Source: Tetramitus jugosus (taxonomy: Eukaryota > Heterolobosea > Eutetramitea > Acrasida > Vahlkampfiidae). Taken from it: 64,000 nucleotides of DNA. The notes beneath the pieces are model-generated. The model saw nothing but the letters and a program-made list of their open reading frames with translations. It did not search any database and had not been told where the DNA came from. The stretch is from assembly GCA_937625935.1 (NCBI GenBank), contig OW569372.1, positions 372,001-436,000 of the forward strand, in the 5' to 3' direction. Positions 7,854 to 55,364 of the stretch are shown here, piece after piece (the stretch's first letter is position 1; each line of letters starts with the position of its first letter). The translations under genes were made by a program, and so were the position numbers.

Positions 7854-8435
7854 ATGTCGTCCACAATCACTGACAATACTATCAATACCAATAAGAGACT
7901 CTACCTCTTGAGAGGAATCAGCGGAAGTGGAAAATCAACTTTGTCCCGCACCATTCTCCAAACGGAGAATATTTTGGCGCCAATCGTAAATGATGAGAAT
8001 GAGACTCACAAGCAAATTGTGTTCAAGCACATTCTGAGCACGGATGATTACTTTGTGAATAGACAGACGGGTCGATATGAGTTTGAGGGTGCCAAAATTG
8101 GTCGAGCTCACGAATGGAATCAAAACAGAGTCAAACAGTGCATGTCCCAGTCACAATCTATAATTATTGTGGACAATACGAATACTCAGAGGTGGGAAGC
8201 AAAGCCCTATGTCGTTTTGGCACAAGAATTTGGATATGAAGTGATTGTGAGAGAGCCTGATACTCCATGGAGAAGAAATGCAGCCGAGTTGGCCAAGAGA
8301 AATGTCCATGGTGTGCCAGTGGAAGCCATTCAGAGAATGCTGGACAGGTGGGACGAAGATTTTTCCGTGGAGGCCATTCTGAAGAGTGCACCACCAAAGA
8401 GAAGAGGTCCACCAAGAGGAAACAGAAACCAATAA
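7854..8435 (+). CDS. P-loop NTPase/kinase of the N4BP2-like family
   Basis: 193 aa, ATG at 7854. A textbook Walker A (GISGSGKST, residues 21-29) is followed by a TDDYF motif (about 63-67) and a Walker B-like IIIVDNTN strand ending at Asp107. Next come AKPYVVLAQEFGYEV and RNVHGVPVEAI, which is the pattern of the AAA_33-type kinases related to NEDD4-binding protein 2 and polynucleotide kinases. The C-terminal tail is basic and Pro-rich (PPKRRGPPRGNRN) and could bind nucleic acid. Full-length for N4BP2L1-like proteins. The true substrate is unknown. Its stop codon overlaps an AATAAA at 8431-8436. Confidence 0.8.
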   Translation: MSSTITDNTINTNKRLYLLRGISGSGKSTLSRTILQTENILAPIVNDENETHKQIVFKHILSTDDYFVNRQTGRYEFEGAKIGRAHEWNQNRVKQCMSQSQSIIIVDNTNTQRWEAKPYVVLAQEFGYEVIVREPDTPWRRNAAELAKRNVHGVPVEAIQRMLDRWDEDFSVEAILKSAPPKRRGPPRGNRNQ

Positions 8436-44086: not shown

Positions 44087-45850
44087 ATGAAAAGAAATAA
44101 ATCAGAACTCAATGCACAACCTAGTGTTAGGAGTTCTTCGATGATCTACACTCTGAGAAGAATGGACGGAACTGGTCAAAATCCTCCCCAAGTGATCCAA
44201 AAAACAATTGTCAGAAGTTACTCAACCAGAACTCACTCGTCTAGTATCAAAGTAGCGACTCGGGTGATGAAGGTGCATGAGGTGGGGAATTATAATCTGT
44301 CTGAACGAAGAGAACAACTTCAAAGAGACAAGGAGGAAGAACCCAGCGACTCACAGGGAAGTCTAGGTACTAAGAAGAATAGAGAACCAGAGAAATTGAC
44401 AAGGAGGTTGCTATCATCCAACAAAACTGTACATTCTCCTCGATGGTTGAAGAATACACTATCAGAAAGTTCATTAAGTCTTTCTAGCCAGAGGAGACCA
44501 TCATCAGCTCTTCCTTATGGTAGAGGTACACATGGATTTGAACAACGACCACAATCTGCTCCTTCGGGGATGGCTAACCAACCATGGGTGGGGATTCGGG
44601 ATATGACTCCCCTTCAGAAGAATAGGTACTTAATAGCACTCGAGAAAGAAAATTCTTCTAAGACAACAATTGAGATGGAAGAAAAACCGAGACACAAAGA
44701 AAAGAAGCAGATCATTCGAGAGAGATATTCTCCAGAATCCCATTATGTGCTCTATGATGAGGAGAATATTCCGATGGCATCTAACTGGGAGAATCCGAAT
44801 AAGTTTTTATTTTCTGACATGCCAGACCGTGCAAAACTAACATCTATGGAACAGATAGAGTATGATACTCTAGCAGCGACGAACTTATTGCGGACTAGAC
44901 CGGGTGCCTTTGCTCAAATGTTGGGAATGCTGAAGGAGTTTTACTCCTCTGATGGAACAGAGTTTCGAGCACCTGGACTCAACTCGCTTGTCAAGCCGGG
45001 TGGATTAGCGGATCTTGAGGATTGTATAGAATATTTGAAGAATCAAACACCAGTCCCACCATTAGTTTACTCAAAAGCTCTATCTCTAGCCTGTCGAGAT
45101 TTTGCAGAGGATTCGGACAAAAATGGATTGAGGGGTAACAATGGTCTAAACCAATCTGTTTTTTCTAGATGCGAGAAGTATGGGAAGCCTGCTAGTGGGG
45201 ATGGTGGGGAAAACATAACCTATGGAGAAAACACTGGGATAGGAACTGTCATTGACCTAGTGCTCCAAGGAAATCACCGCACAGAATTATTCGTGAACCA
45301 GTACAAAATGATGGGAATAGGTTGTGTGCAACATTCAAACTCCAAGAATATCTGTGTTTGTGCTTTTGCATCTTCTTTCATTGATCGAGTAAAAAGGAGT
45401 GATGAGAAAAGAAGCAAAATTCCAAAGGGAATTTCTCCTCAGTATACTGGACCCTTAGTACCTCCGATCATATCTTCAAGCAACTGGTCGAAAGTAAATC
45501 TATTGGCTTTTGAAACTATCATCGCTTCGTTGGGCTCGAGGAAGAAAGAACTTAAGACCAAGAAAGTCAAGGGCCCTACGATGTTGAGAAAAACTGCGAT
45601 CAGTGCAGTTCATCCTCTGACTGGTAAACTTGAGGCAGGGCCACGAGTGGACTTTGTATTCCAATTGTCTGGCGAATGTTCAGTAGAGAGGTACATTTTG
45701 TTCAACAATGGAAAGCCGTATCCCTTCCGACTTCAGCTTCCGAAATACTTAACTCTAACTCTCAAGAGTCTAGAACGACCAAGTGTAACTATATCTGAAC
45801 AAGTAGATTCAACACAATTGATTCCCGTACTCGAGTATCAAGTAGAATAA
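44087..45850 (+). CDS. Intracellular CAP/SCP-domain protein, 587 aa
   Basis: ATG 44087. Residues 1-240 are basic, Ser/Arg-rich and disordered (RRPSSALPYGRG, RPQSAPSG). A CAP domain covers about 255-435: YDTLAATNLLRTRPGAFA, PVPPLVYSKALSLACRDFAED, SGDGGENITYGE (the CAP GENI motif) and YKMMGIGCVQHSNSKNICVCAFAS. A C-terminal beta-rich extension follows (about 440-587). There is no signal peptide, which is unusual for this mostly secreted family; GAPR-1-like members are the intracellular precedent. It sits in a head-to-tail run with the 665-aa gene (81 bp upstream) and TRIM37 (100 bp downstream). Function unknown; membrane or lipid association is the family's best-known property. Confidence 0.78.
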   Translation: MKRNKSELNAQPSVRSSSMIYTLRRMDGTGQNPPQVIQKTIVRSYSTRTHSSSIKVATRVMKVHEVGNYNLSERREQLQRDKEEEPSDSQGSLGTKKNREPEKLTRRLLSSNKTVHSPRWLKNTLSESSLSLSSQRRPSSALPYGRGTHGFEQRPQSAPSGMANQPWVGIRDMTPLQKNRYLIALEKENSSKTTIEMEEKPRHKEKKQIIRERYSPESHYVLYDEENIPMASNWENPNKFLFSDMPDRAKLTSMEQIEYDTLAATNLLRTRPGAFAQMLGMLKEFYSSDGTEFRAPGLNSLVKPGGLADLEDCIEYLKNQTPVPPLVYSKALSLACRDFAEDSDKNGLRGNNGLNQSVFSRCEKYGKPASGDGGENITYGENTGIGTVIDLVLQGNHRTELFVNQYKMMGIGCVQHSNSKNICVCAFASSFIDRVKRSDEKRSKIPKGISPQYTGPLVPPIISSSNWSKVNLLAFETIIASLGSRKKELKTKKVKGPTMLRKTAISAVHPLTGKLEAGPRVDFVFQLSGECSVERYILFNNGKPYPFRLQLPKYLTLTLKSLERPSVTISEQVDSTQLIPVLEYQVE

Positions 45851-45950: not shown

Positions 45951-48118
45951 ATGGATGATTTGTTGAGCTCTAGGATCTCAAGGTCTCATATTACTAGACC
46001 AATATATCCGAGAAGGACTCCCATCATCCCAATTACACTTAGTCAGCACCAAAATGGCTTAACTGCGGAAAACTACCCCATGGCATCCGTTTTTGATTCC
46101 TCTGCATCTCCTACATCTCCACAGAATCCAGAACTTGGCATCCAGAACAAAAGCATGAACAGTTCAGCCGATTCTCCTACTATTCTTCAATTCAATAATC
46201 ACATTGACGAAATCTTCAAGTGTTTTATTTGTTTGGGTAAGGCAGAGAATCCTCACTTGTGTCCTTACTGCTCTAAAATGGTGTGCTATGATTGCATAAA
46301 GGTATGGTCAAAATCTCGAATGATCAACAGAAGGTGGCTGTTCATATTAACTTTCTATTATAGAGGTGGCTCATGGATCAGAAGAAATCATTTTGTCCCC
46401 ACTGTCGTGCAAATGTTAGAGTATCCCAGTTAGTCAACTGTAGATTTGTTGCAGAAATCTCCCAAGAAATTGACAAGCTCACAAACCAACGCAAACATAA
46501 GAAAGAAGCTGATAAAAAGTTATCAATAGTGGATTCGTGTCTAGTTCACTCTTTAGCATTGGGATACTACTGTGAGACTTGTAAGGAAGCTATATGCAGC
46601 GATTGTGCAATGTTCGATGAACAACACAAGAACCATTCTTTCAAGAAAATTACCGAAGTGTATCAACAACACTTGCAAGTAGTGAAGGCTGATTGTGAAT
46701 TACTGGGAGCTAGGTTAACTCTCCTTCGAAAATATCTTAGAGAGATAGATTCAAACATTCATTCCTTGAACAAATCAAAGAACGACAAAGCGAAAGAGAT
46801 GGACAAGGTGGTGAGGGAGATGAAAGATAGACTTGACTCTCAACTCAAAGACAAGATTAACTCCTCTCAATCTCTCAGAAGTTCAATATCTGATGAAGTG
46901 GATTTGTTAGATAAGATGCACTCTGAGCTTCAGAGACAGATTGGACAAAGTTCTCAGAGTATGTTGATTGCAAAAACTGACGAGATTAGAAGAATGATTA
47001 AGGAGGTGAACGAACAAGAGCCCATTCCTTATTCGACGCTTCAACTACAAGCAGATTTTTCTTCTGAACTAGTCCCAGATTATGATGAAGGAATTTTCGA
47101 AGTGAAGAACTTTTCTTGTTTGGGACTTTCTGATATCGTCTATTCAGATCCTCTCTACGTGAATGGGTTAACATGGAGACTAAAAGTTTATCCCTGCGGA
47201 ACAGGAATGGCTCAAGGAACATTCATCTCGGTTTTCTTGGAGATGGTTAAGGGATTGAGAAATCCAACTAGATATGAGTATAAGGTCGAAATGATCAACT
47301 TTATTGATCCCAAACGGAGTATCCTCAGAGAATTTTCTTCGGTGTTCGAAACTGGTGAATGTTGGGGTTACAATCGATTTTGTAAGAATGAACAGATAAG
47401 GAGTGAAGGATTTGTATGTCCCGTGAATGACACTGTCAAATTTAAGTTCTTTGTTCGTCCACCGAGTTACTATCAGAGATGTTTAGAGCAGAAAAGATAC
47501 ATTCGAAACTTGAAGGATTCACGTCATAAACTCCAAGAGTTAGTTGAGGATTTAAGGATAAAGCTGGAGGAAGCTGTATCCAAAGAGTCCACCAGAGAAG
47601 ACGAAACTCGACAACATTCAATAACAACAAGCTACTCCAATAGTGATGAGGATGAAGGAGACGTATTTCAAAACTCTGAGGGGAACTCTGACTGTGAGGA
47701 AACAAGTGAAGTGAACACTCGAGAGCAATTCTCAGAAGACAGCCCGACTAGGGGGCAAGCACTACAGAACAGAATAATGAAATTCGAGAGATCCACATTA
47801 AGAAATACTGATGTGGCATGCTCCCCCATCGAAAAAACTTCTGACATTGATCAATCATTACTGGATGTCCCACAAACGTGGTTAGCCAAGCTGGAACAGG
47901 AAAAGAAATTCGATGGACAAATCTTCTTGACGGACGCAACAGGTGAGAGCAGCGAACACTTTGTATTTGGATTAGATAACAATCAAAATCAAACTGACTA
48001 CATTGTTCCTATTCGATCGCTATTCTCAGATGCCTCTGAGGAATCGAATGACCAGTGGACAAGTGCTGTTGATTCAACTCAAACTCATTTTGAAGTCGAA
48101 CTACAGACCATCGAATAG
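45951..48118 (+). CDS. TRIM37: TRIM37-type E3 ubiquitin ligase (RING, B-box, coiled coil, MATH), one intron
   Basis: Exons 45951-46301 and 46364-48118; 62-nt intron (donor GTATGG, phase 0) that splits the RING finger; 701 aa. The start is the ATG of MDDLLSSRIS; upstream codons in frame are non-ATG. The RING (about 88-135) reads IFKCFICLGKAENPHLCPYCSKM, then across the intron RWLMDQKKSFCPHCRANV and LVNCRF, near-identical in pattern to animal TRIM37. B-box about 172-218 (CETCKEAICSDCAMFDEQHKNHSFK), coiled coil about 220-340, MATH about 361-490 (LTWRLKVYPCGTG). The tail is acidic. TRIM37 controls centriole duplication and peroxisomal import in animals. Its stop is 3 bp from that of the Dicer-like gene. 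Confidence 0.93.
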
Positions 48119-48121
48119 ATT

Positions 48122-51037
48122 CTATTCTTCTGCTTCATTTTCATCACTTTCTTCATCACTGATCAGAATCGCATTTCCGTCTTGAGATGAAGACACTGGT
48201 ATTTGAGTGGTGTTGGTTGTCGTTTTCTTCACCCACGTGTTGATTCCAGACACTCCCTTCAGTATCTTGGTAGCAATAAGCTCGTCATCAGCCTTGTTTG
48301 ACAACAATCGCAATACTTCCTCTAAGTGTGCCATAGTTTGACCTCTTTTGGAATTGCTAGACAAAGCTGATGCAATCCGTTTCTGAAGAGTATCTATCTT
48401 GTTTTGAACAGTTGCAAGCTGTTTGTTGGAAGCACTGTACCGACGCGAGAGAGAATCTTTGAACGTACTCAAATCAACGTGATCGTCCGGTGTATCGATA
48501 GGAGTAGGAGTAGGCTTTGATGTCGTACTGAGAGCTTCTCTTCCTTCAAGAGTGAAAATTTTGTGAATAAATCGATCACCAACATCACACTCCGTGCCAT
48601 TATTGAACACCGTCAATCCTCCATCAATAAATAACAGACCAACAATAATGAATAAGAGATGCTTCTTGTTCTGCACAGCGACACCCAACTGATGAGGGAA
48701 GAGCTTCGCATGACTCAGCTTCTTCATGATTTCCTCTCTCTGAATCGTCAATGAGCCAATTATGAGAGAAACGGTAGGTCTGCAAAAGACGTGTAATGCC
48801 AGCACTAATTTTACAATCGCACGCCCAACTCGATAAACGTTGTTGCGGTCCATAGATACTTCAGATCGATATAAGCAGCGAGACACTATGGACTTGCTCT
48901 TGAACTGGTAATTCAGAAATTGTTGTAACATTAAAATTTTCTTATCATCTTGTGTTACACTGGGACCACTTGTTCTAATCTTTCGAACTGATTCTTTGAA
49001 TATGACCTTCTCACAAAAGTCAAGTACACTATTCAAATCACCTTTTCGATCAATAAAAATGGCACCTGTCAGTGCCTCGACTGCATCGGCAATATGCTTT
49101 TGGGTAATAGTGATAGCACTCATCATATATGATTCCAAGCCGATCGCCTTACCTAGAGTGGCCAAGTTGTTGTTTGTCACTAACTTTGACATTCGCTTTT
49201 CGGTATCCTGGTAATCTTTGCTATAAAAGTAGATGGCATTTGCCACATCAAGCACTGAGTCTCCCAGGAATTCTAAACGCTCATTACCAATGAACCTGTT
49301 GCCATGAAACAACGCAAATGAGTCGTGCATCAAACATTGCCGCAACAAAAATGGATTCTCAAATTGAATTTGTAACTTTTGTTCGAGCGTTTGCAATGAC
49401 TTCAAGTGTCGAACAATGGATTCATTAAACTCCTGTATAAAGTTGCGTCGCTCCATAATCTTCATCACTCCCGATGCAAAAGGAGTACAATACAGTTGAT
49501 CACACGGTATCATTACAATTCCATCATTGTGGATCTTCTCCAATCCTTTTCTTCTCGTCTTTTCTCCTGCCAATATGGCTCTCAAATAAGTGGCCAAATA
49601 ATCTTTGTTGGAATGCCTCAGAGTTGAAACAGAGGAAATATATTTGACCTCAGAACAACCAGCGAGCCAGTTTGTCTTAGATGACAAGAACAAATCAAGA
49701 AATTCAACAAGATAGAGTTTGTTTGTCTTTTTGTGAACAAACACACAATCTTCAAACATGAGAGACAGCGTTGTGTAGTCACTTGACACCACCTTTTTCT
49801 CAAGCATGTAAGAAGACAGGGATGACAATGAAATCTTTGATGTATTCAACTGATCCTGAACAAACGTACTCAACGTATCCGTACAAGTCATATCGTGATC
49901 TCTGCGATTCACTGACATCATACTCTTCATGCACTGAAACAATTGATCAAATGAAAAATTGCCTCCGTCCTGTTCGCGTGCCACTTGTTGAGTTTCCTCT
50001 GTCAATTTACTCGACAACAACGATGCATCTCTCATTGGAAACAGCAAAAATCGACCAGAAATATCCTGGTTGACCACCGAGTTACTAATCATGGCATACT
50101 CTCTTCTGCTGCTGCTACCACTCTTGTGGTTGCTGCCATGATTGTCACTTGATGCAGCAGAAGAAGAAGAAGAAGTATTATTATTGACTGCCAACAACTC
50201 TGATTCATACCAATTCATCAAGCATCGTATATCACTCTCATTCATATCGACCTTGAACAAGAAAACAGGAGAAACAAATGTACCTCTCTGTTGCAAATCT
50301 GTTCGTTCCATCAAATCATGCACATGAAATGGACAGAATGGAAACGGTCTCTGCAAATCATAAAAACTGAACAAGAGAACTGAATTGAAATAATTGTTCT
50401 TGTGATTGGCAAGTGCATTCGTCTGGTGCATGATGCACTTTAGTTCATACACATACATTTCATCTTGTATGATCACTACGCTATCAGTACGAGTGTGACT
50501 ACTATGATTATCATTTCTATTGCTATGATTATTATTATTACTAGCAGCAGTTGTAGTTGCTGTAGTAGTAGTCGCAGAAGAACTAGTTGTTGACGTGCTA
50601 GTGGCAGTAGGAGTAGCTGTGGCAGTAAGAGGTGGAGGAGTACTTGATGAAGGTGGTGGTGTGGTGATCGTAGTAGTAGTCGCAGCACTTGTGTTTCTAT
50701 TCTTGTTGTTAATGTTATTGTGTTGTTGTTGTTGTTGCAAGTTTCTGAAGAGTGAACCTGTGGGGAAGCGATTGTTGCTGGAATAACGAATAAAATTCAA
50801 CAAATTTTGGTCTTCTGCGCAGTGATCATTACTATTGTTATTGTTGCTGTTGTTATCGCTCGAAGGAGCCTTTTGATTGTTGTTATTGTTGTTATTGTTG
50901 GTGTCATGCGAAAGCTTTTGTCTCTTGGAGGATTGTTGTTGCTGTTCTTGGTCTTGTTGGTGTTGGTGTTGTTGGAGAGCTACATTGGTGTTTGATGACA
51001 ACACTTCTTGCTCCTCCTGAGCTCGTTTCCTTCTCAT
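48122..51037 (-). CDS. Dicer-like protein with one active and one decayed RNase III domain
   Basis: 971 aa, ATG 51035-51037. Residues 1-185 are Gln/Asn/Thr/Ser low complexity. Residues 190-550 are ordered and lead into RNase III with a Dicer-like connector (PCDQLYCTPFASGVMKIMERR), possibly including PAZ/platform elements. RNase III-1 (about 553-685) has NERLEFLGDSVL and DAVEALTGAIF with all four metal ligands: Glu589, Asp593, Asp651 and Glu654. RNase III-2 (about 700-830) keeps the framework (RVGRAIVKL; GLLFIDGG), but the four positions are Tyr735, Arg739, His793 and Phe796. No helicase or dsRNA-binding domain is seen. The C-terminus is a coiled coil with an acidic tail. It likely makes small RNAs; family placement is inferred. 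Confidence 0.85.
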   Translation of the reverse strand: MRRKRAQEEQEVLSSNTNVALQQHQHQQDQEQQQQSSKRQKLSHDTNNNNNNNNQKAPSSDNNSNNNNSNDHCAEDQNLLNFIRYSSNNRFPTGSLFRNLQQQQQHNNINNKNRNTSAATTTTITTPPPSSSTPPPLTATATPTATSTSTTSSSATTTTATTTAASNNNNHSNRNDNHSSHTRTDSVVIIQDEMYVYELKCIMHQTNALANHKNNYFNSVLLFSFYDLQRPFPFCPFHVHDLMERTDLQQRGTFVSPVFLFKVDMNESDIRCLMNWYESELLAVNNNTSSSSSAASSDNHGSNHKSGSSSRREYAMISNSVVNQDISGRFLLFPMRDASLLSSKLTEETQQVAREQDGGNFSFDQLFQCMKSMMSVNRRDHDMTCTDTLSTFVQDQLNTSKISLSSLSSYMLEKKVVSSDYTTLSLMFEDCVFVHKKTNKLYLVEFLDLFLSSKTNWLAGCSEVKYISSVSTLRHSNKDYLATYLRAILAGEKTRRKGLEKIHNDGIVMIPCDQLYCTPFASGVMKIMERRNFIQEFNESIVRHLKSLQTLEQKLQIQFENPFLLRQCLMHDSFALFHGNRFIGNERLEFLGDSVLDVANAIYFYSKDYQDTEKRMSKLVTNNNLATLGKAIGLESYMMSAITITQKHIADAVEALTGAIFIDRKGDLNSVLDFCEKVIFKESVRKIRTSGPSVTQDDKKILMLQQFLNYQFKSKSIVSRCLYRSEVSMDRNNVYRVGRAIVKLVLALHVFCRPTVSLIIGSLTIQREEIMKKLSHAKLFPHQLGVAVQNKKHLLFIIVGLLFIDGGLTVFNNGTECDVGDRFIHKIFTLEGREALSTTSKPTPTPIDTPDDHVDLSTFKDSLSRRYSASNKQLATVQNKIDTLQKRIASALSSNSKRGQTMAHLEEVLRLLSNKADDELIATKILKGVSGINTWVKKTTTNTTQIPVSSSQDGNAILISDEESDENEAEE
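50450..50960 (-). repeat. Asn, Thr, Ser and Gln codon repeats in the Dicer-like N-terminus
   Basis: Runs of AAC/AAT, ACT/ACA and CAA on the minus strand code for homopolymers at residues about 47-70, 101-112, 120-172. Mixed codons suggest protein-level tolerance rather than one recent expansion. Confidence 0.6.
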
Positions 51038-54497: not shown

Positions 54498-55364
54498 CTA
54501 CTTATCCAATGAATCAAACAGCGCGTTCAATGTATTGTAAACGTGTTGACCCTTTGTTGTGGGAACACTCGCATTACTGTCGCTGTCACTATCAATAAAG
54601 GAGCATGTAGGTGTGACGCGAGACACATTGGACAAGAAACGATTGAGCTCCGTTGTAACACCAGGGTCCGTTCCCACAAACAAGTTCGGTTCCAACTGTC
54701 TAGCAATCGCAATTTGTCCTCGAGCTGTCTCACAGAACAAAATCTTGTGCTCATTCAATCCATAATCACACAACGACAAACCATCCTGTGATGACGACGA
54801 AGAAGAAGACTTCATACACTCTACAATCATTCTCTCCTGTTCATCGCTTTGAACTTGAGTCACAATATACAACTCACATTCCTGTGCCAATTTTTGCAGA
54901 GTGGCCAATTGAGTCCTCAATACGACTATTCTCTCATTCAGTGCATCTACACTAGAATTGACATCATCACCATTATCACTCACAATAACAACATTGTCTT
55001 CGGAACTAACTCTAGACAAGAAGCAATCTGCTGTTACAATCACACGCCATCCAGAGTAGACATGAGCCTTGTTTTTTCCTCTCTTGTTGCGCTGTAGTTG
55101 TTGATCGGCAGTGTTTGTTCGTTGTTCGTCATTTTCATTTTCGTTATCATTGCGATCATTCAATCCTTGTTGTTGTCGCTGTTGTCGTTGTTGTTGTCTA
55201 TTTTTTGATCCGCCACCGGTGAGGACAACGAGGAGTAGGGGCAGAAAACCCATGAGTACAACAATGATCCATCCCCAAGACATTTTGAGCGAGAAATTAC
55301 GTTTCAGTAGTGAAGAATAAAATGATGGTTGTTTGATGGTGGTGGGATACGAGCCTTTTGGCAT
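54498..55364 (-). CDS. PEX22: Peroxin-22-like protein
   Basis: 288 aa from the ATG 55362-55364; an internal ATG at 55283 (MSWGWIIVV) is also possible. One membrane helix (about 30-48) is followed by a Gln/Asn/Arg linker and a soluble domain from about 105. This domain matches plant PEX22: LQKLAQECELYIVTQVQSDEQERMI, NEHKILFCETARGQIAIARQLEPNLFVGTDP and LNRFLSNV correspond to its KLAxxCDLYL, KVLFCSTExGRxSFVRQLEPDxHIDTxP and LxRFI blocks. PEX22 anchors the ubiquitin-conjugating enzyme PEX4 on the peroxisome membrane for recycling the import receptor PEX5. A run of seven serines lies in the domain. Its presence implies a PEX4 partner elsewhere. Confidence 0.82.
   Translation of the reverse strand: MPKGSYPTTIKQPSFYSSLLKRNFSLKMSWGWIIVVLMGFLPLLLVVLTGGGSKNRQQQRQQRQQQGLNDRNDNENENDEQRTNTADQQLQRNKRGKNKAHVYSGWRVIVTADCFLSRVSSEDNVVIVSDNGDDVNSSVDALNERIVVLRTQLATLQKLAQECELYIVTQVQSDEQERMIVECMKSSSSSSSQDGLSLCDYGLNEHKILFCETARGQIAIARQLEPNLFVGTDPGVTTELNRFLSNVSRVTPTCSFIDSDSDSNASVPTTKGQHVYNTLNALFDSLDK

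Follow-up and report, generated by a model that had tools for sequence, protein, structure and literature searches.

A helicase-less Dicer-like protein predicted in Tetramitus jugosus, with all metal ligands in its first RNase III domain and none in its second

The Dicer-like gene and its two RNase III domains

The window, i.e., the whole stretch of DNA analysed, comprises 64,000 nucleotides of the Tetramitus jugosus genome (assembly GCA_937625935.1, contig OW569372.1, positions 372,001 to 436,000). A Dicer-like open reading frame (ORF) was found on its minus strand at 48122-51037. By alignment and structure model, the predicted protein carries two RNase III domains in a single chain, the first (domain a) having four metal ligands and the second (domain b) none. 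The ORF runs for 971 codons from ATG and is not interrupted by a stop or frameshift. In codon usage, trained on 17 other ORFs of the window, its frame ranked top of six in 6/6 segments. The domain-b segment had the lowest codon score of the ORF, 0.088 bits/codon, and its five other frames were negative. A pseudogene or a frame error was rejected, as the ORF is intact and its own frame scored highest throughout. The parts of the gene, all on the minus strand, are as follows.

48122..51037, minus: whole ORF, 971 amino acids, helicase-less Dicer-like tandem RNase III protein (ORF and codon usage)
50498..51037, minus: residues 1-180, low-complexity leader rich in N, Q, S and T (sequence; disorder inferred)
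49478..50497, minus: residues 181-520, the place of platform and PAZ in Dicer (position only)
49373..49468, minus: residues 524-555, long helix where Dicer has the connector helix (helix 155-186 of the model)
48998..49396, minus: residues 548-680, RNase III domain a, intact (Pfam PF14622 and PF00636 above cut-off; alignment)
48512..48934, minus: residues 702-842, RNase III domain b, degenerate and ligand-less (paralogue profile, model and fold match, alignment)
48554..48607, minus: residues 811-828, extension after the second motif, N-N-x3-x-D-V-x3-F-I-H (alignment and profile match)
48125..48511, minus: residues 843-971, C-terminal tail without a Pfam match to a double-stranded RNA-binding domain (dsRBD) (Pfam search)

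Domain a passed both Pfam cut-offs, i.e., PF14622 with 59.1 bits and PF00636 with 44.6 bits, and domain b was not recognized by Pfam. Besides RNase III, nothing in the protein scored above the cut-off: no helicase, PAZ, dsRBD or zinc finger was matched. The DExD/H helicase and dimerisation domain that Dicer has at its N-terminus, and the C-terminal dsRBD, had no Pfam match, and PAZ was matched neither in the protein nor in a six-frame Pfam search. Residues 1-180 are probably disordered, judging from their composition. The platform and PAZ comparison by hhalign gave a weak match (E 0.74). In pairwise shuffle tests of this stretch, five of six segments were negative and the score of the sixth was reached by 4 of 300 shuffles. 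The model was not confident here, with a predicted local distance difference test (pLDDT) score below 50 for residues 370-526. The ligand positions, each placed by codon check and alignment, are listed below.

49271..49273, minus: Glu589, metal ligand 1, domain a
49259..49261, minus: Asp593, metal ligand 2, domain a
49085..49087, minus: Asp651, metal ligand 3, domain a
49076..49078, minus: Glu654, metal ligand 4, domain a
48833..48835, minus: Tyr735 in ligand position 1, domain b
48821..48823, minus: Arg739 in ligand position 2, domain b
48659..48661, minus: His793 in ligand position 3, domain b
48650..48652, minus: Phe796 in ligand position 4, domain b

These are the residues that the initial annotation had named, E589, D593, D651 and E654 against Y735, R739, H793 and F796. 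Its description of a Dicer-like tandem core with one intact and one ligand-less centre agrees with the Pfam search, the fold match and the ligand alignment. A helicase and a dsRNA-binding domain, which it had reported as absent, were not matched by Pfam either.

Paralogues, fold and divergence of the second domain

Related genes were searched in the 26.35-megabase assembly, where the best candidates were scored and all gene counts are lower bounds. PF00636 was found at no fewer than 9 places, in at least 5 genes, and PF14622 at at least 11 places. There are at least five tandem RNase III genes, named here by their contigs: one helicase Dicer (C4), one helicase-less gene with both centres intact (C12), and three, i.e., the window gene, C41 and C15, in which domain b is ruined in different ways. 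C4 consists of two adjacent ORFs, with DEAD, Helicase_C, Dicer_dimer and PAZ in one and two RNase III domains and a dsRBD in the other; the pair is taken as a single Dicer gene split by an intron. C12 has PAZ, two RNase III domains and a dsRBD, and no helicase was found within the stretch examined. The two remaining genes are placed as follows.

L011:2973-5579, minus: C41 gene, helicase-less, both RNase III domains recognized by Pfam
L012:3152-5989, minus: C15 gene, helicase-less, both RNase III domains recognized by Pfam

Like the window gene, C41 and C15 are helicase-less, keep E, D, D and E (EDDE) at the ligand positions of domain a, and have each lost three of four ligands in domain b. They differ from it in having other residues in domain b, in Pfam recognition of both domains, and in a C-terminus that looks dsRBD-like by eye. 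This C-terminus was aligned with that of C12, and no Pfam dsRBD match was found in either gene.

Ligands were compared in 15 rows, i.e., five genes of this genome and ten database rows, written as domain a / domain b.

Window gene: EDDE/YRHF
C41: EDDE/ESKR
C15: EDDE/KVDV
C12 and C4: EDDE/EDDE
Ten database rows: domain b EDDE in 10/10; domain a EDDE in 7/10 and EDNE in 3, labelled Drosha-type

Loss of domain-b ligands was seen in 3 of the 15 rows, all from this genome, and domain a was kept in each. Three genes are too few to show that ligand loss favours domain b beyond chance.

Several profiles were used to ask whether domain b resembles RNase III. A general profile, built from the domains of 74 database proteins, gave it just 0.1 bit. 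The profile of the second domains of three paralogues gave 15.0 bits, which none of 2000 shuffles reached (1655 scored, best 6.1). With four paralogues the score was 15.9 bits, again reached by no shuffle (1758 scored, best 6.9), and with C12 and C41 only it was 7.8 bits, reached by 0 of 1640 scored shuffles (best 7.1). The profile of C12 and C4 only gave 4.9 bits, reached by 6 of 1590 scored shuffles. Against single sequences in phmmer, the score of domain b was reached by 2/1541 scored shuffles for C12, 1/1591 for C41, 1/1609 for C15 and 0/1542 for C4. Chance resemblance was rejected by the shuffles, with none reaching the score in 3 of the 4 paralogue profiles; the C12 and C4 profile is the exception. 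The extension at residues 811-828 is common to C12 and C41, weaker in C15 and missing from the other 11 aligned rows.

The initial annotation had proposed two checks, whether residues 700-830 take an RNase III fold and whether another alignment would bring acidic residues into the active site. An AlphaFold model based on an alignment has a tandem RNase III core spanning both domains, and its Dicer-core match by VIA-align starts at model residue 139. Folded from its single sequence, domain b gave a low-confidence fold with pLDDT 39.6; the best Foldseek E was 5.0 and no RNase III was among 14 rows. As to the alignment, the sole E-x3-D pair near the first site among the acidic residues of 690-850 is E726/D730, in a variable stretch before the helix. 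D818 and D821 lie in a motif also found in C12, whose true ligands are intact. Judged by eye from the alignment with the paralogues, no acidic quartet assembles in domain b, and a misaligned active site was rejected.

The two domains also differ in divergence. Identity between the window gene and the three other helicase-less genes is 34-38% for domain a, as against 24-27% for domain b. No such gap is present between C12 and C41 (31% against 34%) or between C12 and C15 (33 against 32%), and a gap is present between C41 and C15 (28% against 18%). The terminal branch of the window gene was 1.04 in the domain-a tree (median 1.17) and 4.19 in the concatenated tree (median 1.03). Because identities and branch lengths differ between the domains, domain a looks constrained, and domain b looks relaxed or re-purposed. 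In the domain-a tree the window gene pairs with C41 (86/86), and the helicase-less genes fall on the Drosha side, not the Dicer side (92/91; midpoint root, long branches). One clade of the four helicase-less genes had an approximately unbiased test p-value (p-AU) of 0.171 in the concatenated and 0.298 in the domain-a tree. The trees have long branches and are little resolved.

Known systems and proposed function

Statements on published systems below refer to the covered parts of the cited articles. Protist Dicers with altered motifs in RNase IIIb are already known (PMC4791657). Naegleria gruberi DCR3, a protist Dicer homologue with altered RNase IIIb like the window gene, has KxxxS in the first motif instead of ExxGD, and in the diatoms P. 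tricornutum and T. pseudonana both RNase IIIb motifs are altered (PMC4791657). However, the second RNase IIIa motif also varies in DCR3 (PMC4791657), which was compared by its description, whereas domain a of the window gene is intact. No function is proposed for the altered DCR3 motif in the covered part of that article (PMC4791657). New here is that domain b has lost all four ligands while domain a is fully kept, and that three dead-b genes share a genome with a helicase Dicer. No description of Dicers with a fixed, inactive second domain as a family was found among the literature titles and abstract openings covered, in which subscription journals are sparsely represented.

Giardia Dicer, like the window protein, has no helicase and no dsRBD, and has a connector helix and a tandem RNase III core (PMC10328071). 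This combination of the minimal Giardia-type Dicer was found here as the helix at 524-555 in the model and the Dicer-core match. PAZ is unrecognized in the window protein, which is a difference. Both centres of Giardia Dicer are intact. Of the features of Dicer in general, the two tandem RNase III domains are present, but the second EDDE centre is not (EDDE/YRHF). The central domain and dsRBD of Drosha were not matched, RNase III being the sole Pfam match above the cut-off.

A live and a dead domain also occur together elsewhere. Human DICER1 with RNase IIIb hotspot mutations combines, within one chain, a live domain a with a dead domain b, like the window protein, and produces nicked precursors and only 3p microRNAs (PMC12700799). 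These are, however, disease mutations of a helicase-bearing Dicer and not a germline-fixed gene. In kinetoplastid editing endonucleases N1-N3 with B6-B8, a live and a ligand-less RNase III domain form one centre, which may restrict the cut to a single strand; according to the authors, multiple heterodimers of this kind appear, to date, to be peculiar to these editing complexes (PMC9508840). Those enzymes are mitochondrial, made of two chains and have matrin-type zinc fingers, whereas the window gene has both domains in one Dicer-like chain.

Textbooks present Dicer as an enzyme with two blades. We read the window protein, with a little better than even confidence, as a Dicer/Drosha-like protein that has tandem RNase III domains, lacks a helicase and has one predicted cutting centre, with which it would nick one strand of double-stranded RNA. 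Domains a and b would pair within one chain in the Dicer style, and domain b would serve as dimer partner and RNA cradle only, so that one cutting centre would be left. By analogy with human Dicer, whose domain a cuts the strand held by its 3' end at the PAZ end, the product may be a short RNA freed from one strand or a nicked duplex. A nicked duplex might be finished by the Dicer of the genome, by slicer Argonautes or by strand removal. At least two Argonautes with PAZ and Piwi were found, L013 (G000:C41:119536-120420) and L014 (G000:C52:148414-149307). Both seem, by eye, to keep the slicer residues, so a nicked or one-stranded product may be usable. RNA-dependent RNA polymerases (RdRP) of the RNA interference (RNAi) type are encoded by at least three genes, G000:C5:13533-14999, C10:408865-410505 and C16:178828-180414. 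The initial annotation had suggested a divergent RNAi enzyme class. Two paralogues with the same layout, beside a helicase Dicer, two Argonautes and three RdRPs, strengthen the suggestion of a divergent RNAi enzyme, and a separate class is conjecture.

Several points weigh against nicking by the window protein. Its enzymatic activity and role in RNAi are predictions. Domain b alone failed to fold in AlphaFold, and the modelled pairing depends on an alignment containing intact Dicers. The human strand rule may not transfer, because PAZ and platform are unrecognized. One clade of the three dead-b genes had p-AU 0.134 and 0.174, and the trees leave a single loss or several undecided. No orthologue was found among the 7985 to 7992 candidates scored in each search. 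In one search at least 2 proteins had E 0.001 or better, and the one with the aligned C-terminal parts of four paralogues gave at least 61, of which many carry names or domains of bacterial RNase III or dGTPase. A further search gave at least 30 at E 10 or better and at least 4 at 0.001 or better; the best listed covers 29% of the query and is 32% identical there.

Other explanations were weighed against the same evidence. A role outside RNAi, e.g., one-sided processing of ribosomal RNA precursors, small nucleolar RNA or organelle RNA, would suit the Drosha-side placement in the domain-a tree (support, root and branches as above), but RNAi genes are present in the genome, and we hold it unlikely. 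Two chains might instead pair through domain a and form a usual RNase III with two centres; dead domain b would then be a tail or regulator. Dicers with a single RNase III domain, among them that of Entamoeba and Dcr1 of K. polysporus, act as dimers (PMC7827160), and domain a retains its four ligands. However, domain b is still RNase III-like beside domain a, a layout that pairs within the chain in Dicer and Drosha, and domain a would need to favour an outside partner; such a homodimer is rather improbable.

The protein might also not cut at all, binding dsRNA or competing with Dicer while its domain-a ligands are kept but little used. The strong divergence of the chain, the lack of a Pfam PAZ or dsRBD and of an orthologue among the scored candidates fit this, and structural pseudo-RNase III chains are known in trypanosome B4 and B5 (PMC9508840). 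But all three dead-b paralogues keep 4/4 ligands in domain a, which is hard to explain without cutting, and we give a regulatory role a low probability. Decay of a copy that loses domain b first would agree with the very fast change and lowest codon score of this domain, and with the lack of an orthologue among the scored candidates. The 971 codons without stop or frameshift, the normal rate and full ligands of domain a and the same asymmetry in three genes make it very unlikely. That three dead-b genes occur in one genome speaks for a division of labour that is one-sided and maintained, and against the decay of a single copy.

Beyond the nicking reading of the window protein, the three genes might form a family of natural nicking Dicers, in which domain b became a scaffold independently or stepwise and the single-strand cut has a set polarity. 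This is a doubtful proposal. If true, the guide strand would be chosen at cutting, not at Argonaute loading, and these proteins would be a single-chain equivalent to the live/dead RNase III pairs of trypanosomes. One-sided dicing, so far from tumour mutants and two-chain editing enzymes, could then be a fixed and multiplied design. Whether the nuclease sets strand choice, and the uses of nicked duplexes, would become testable.

Other genes of the genome and the window

PF14622 added two single-domain genes, on C18 and C6.

L024:1243-2499, minus: single-domain RNase III-like gene, C18 (PF14622 62.6 bits; PF00636 not passed)
L026:868-2238, plus: single-domain RNase III-like gene, C6 (PF14622 41.4 bits; PF00636 not passed)

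By eye, their catalytic motifs are altered, with Gly-Arg for the usual Gly-Asp, like domain b of the window gene. As a guess, they are possibly mitoribosomal proteins of the mL44/mL57 type. Among adenosylhomocysteinases of known structure, the nearest were 5v96 (822.5 bits) and 6uk3 (810.6 bits), from Naegleria fowleri and Acanthamoeba, a pair that does not settle the affinity of the genome.

In the window, the convergent neighbour at 46373-48118 on the plus strand has B-box and MATH domains and is TRIM37-like; its stop codon lies 3 bases off the end of the Dicer-like ORF. A Pex22 peroxisome biogenesis domain was matched at 54498-55364 on the minus strand (62.9 bits), and a CAP (cysteine-rich secretory) domain protein at 44087-45850 on the plus strand (39.1 bits).
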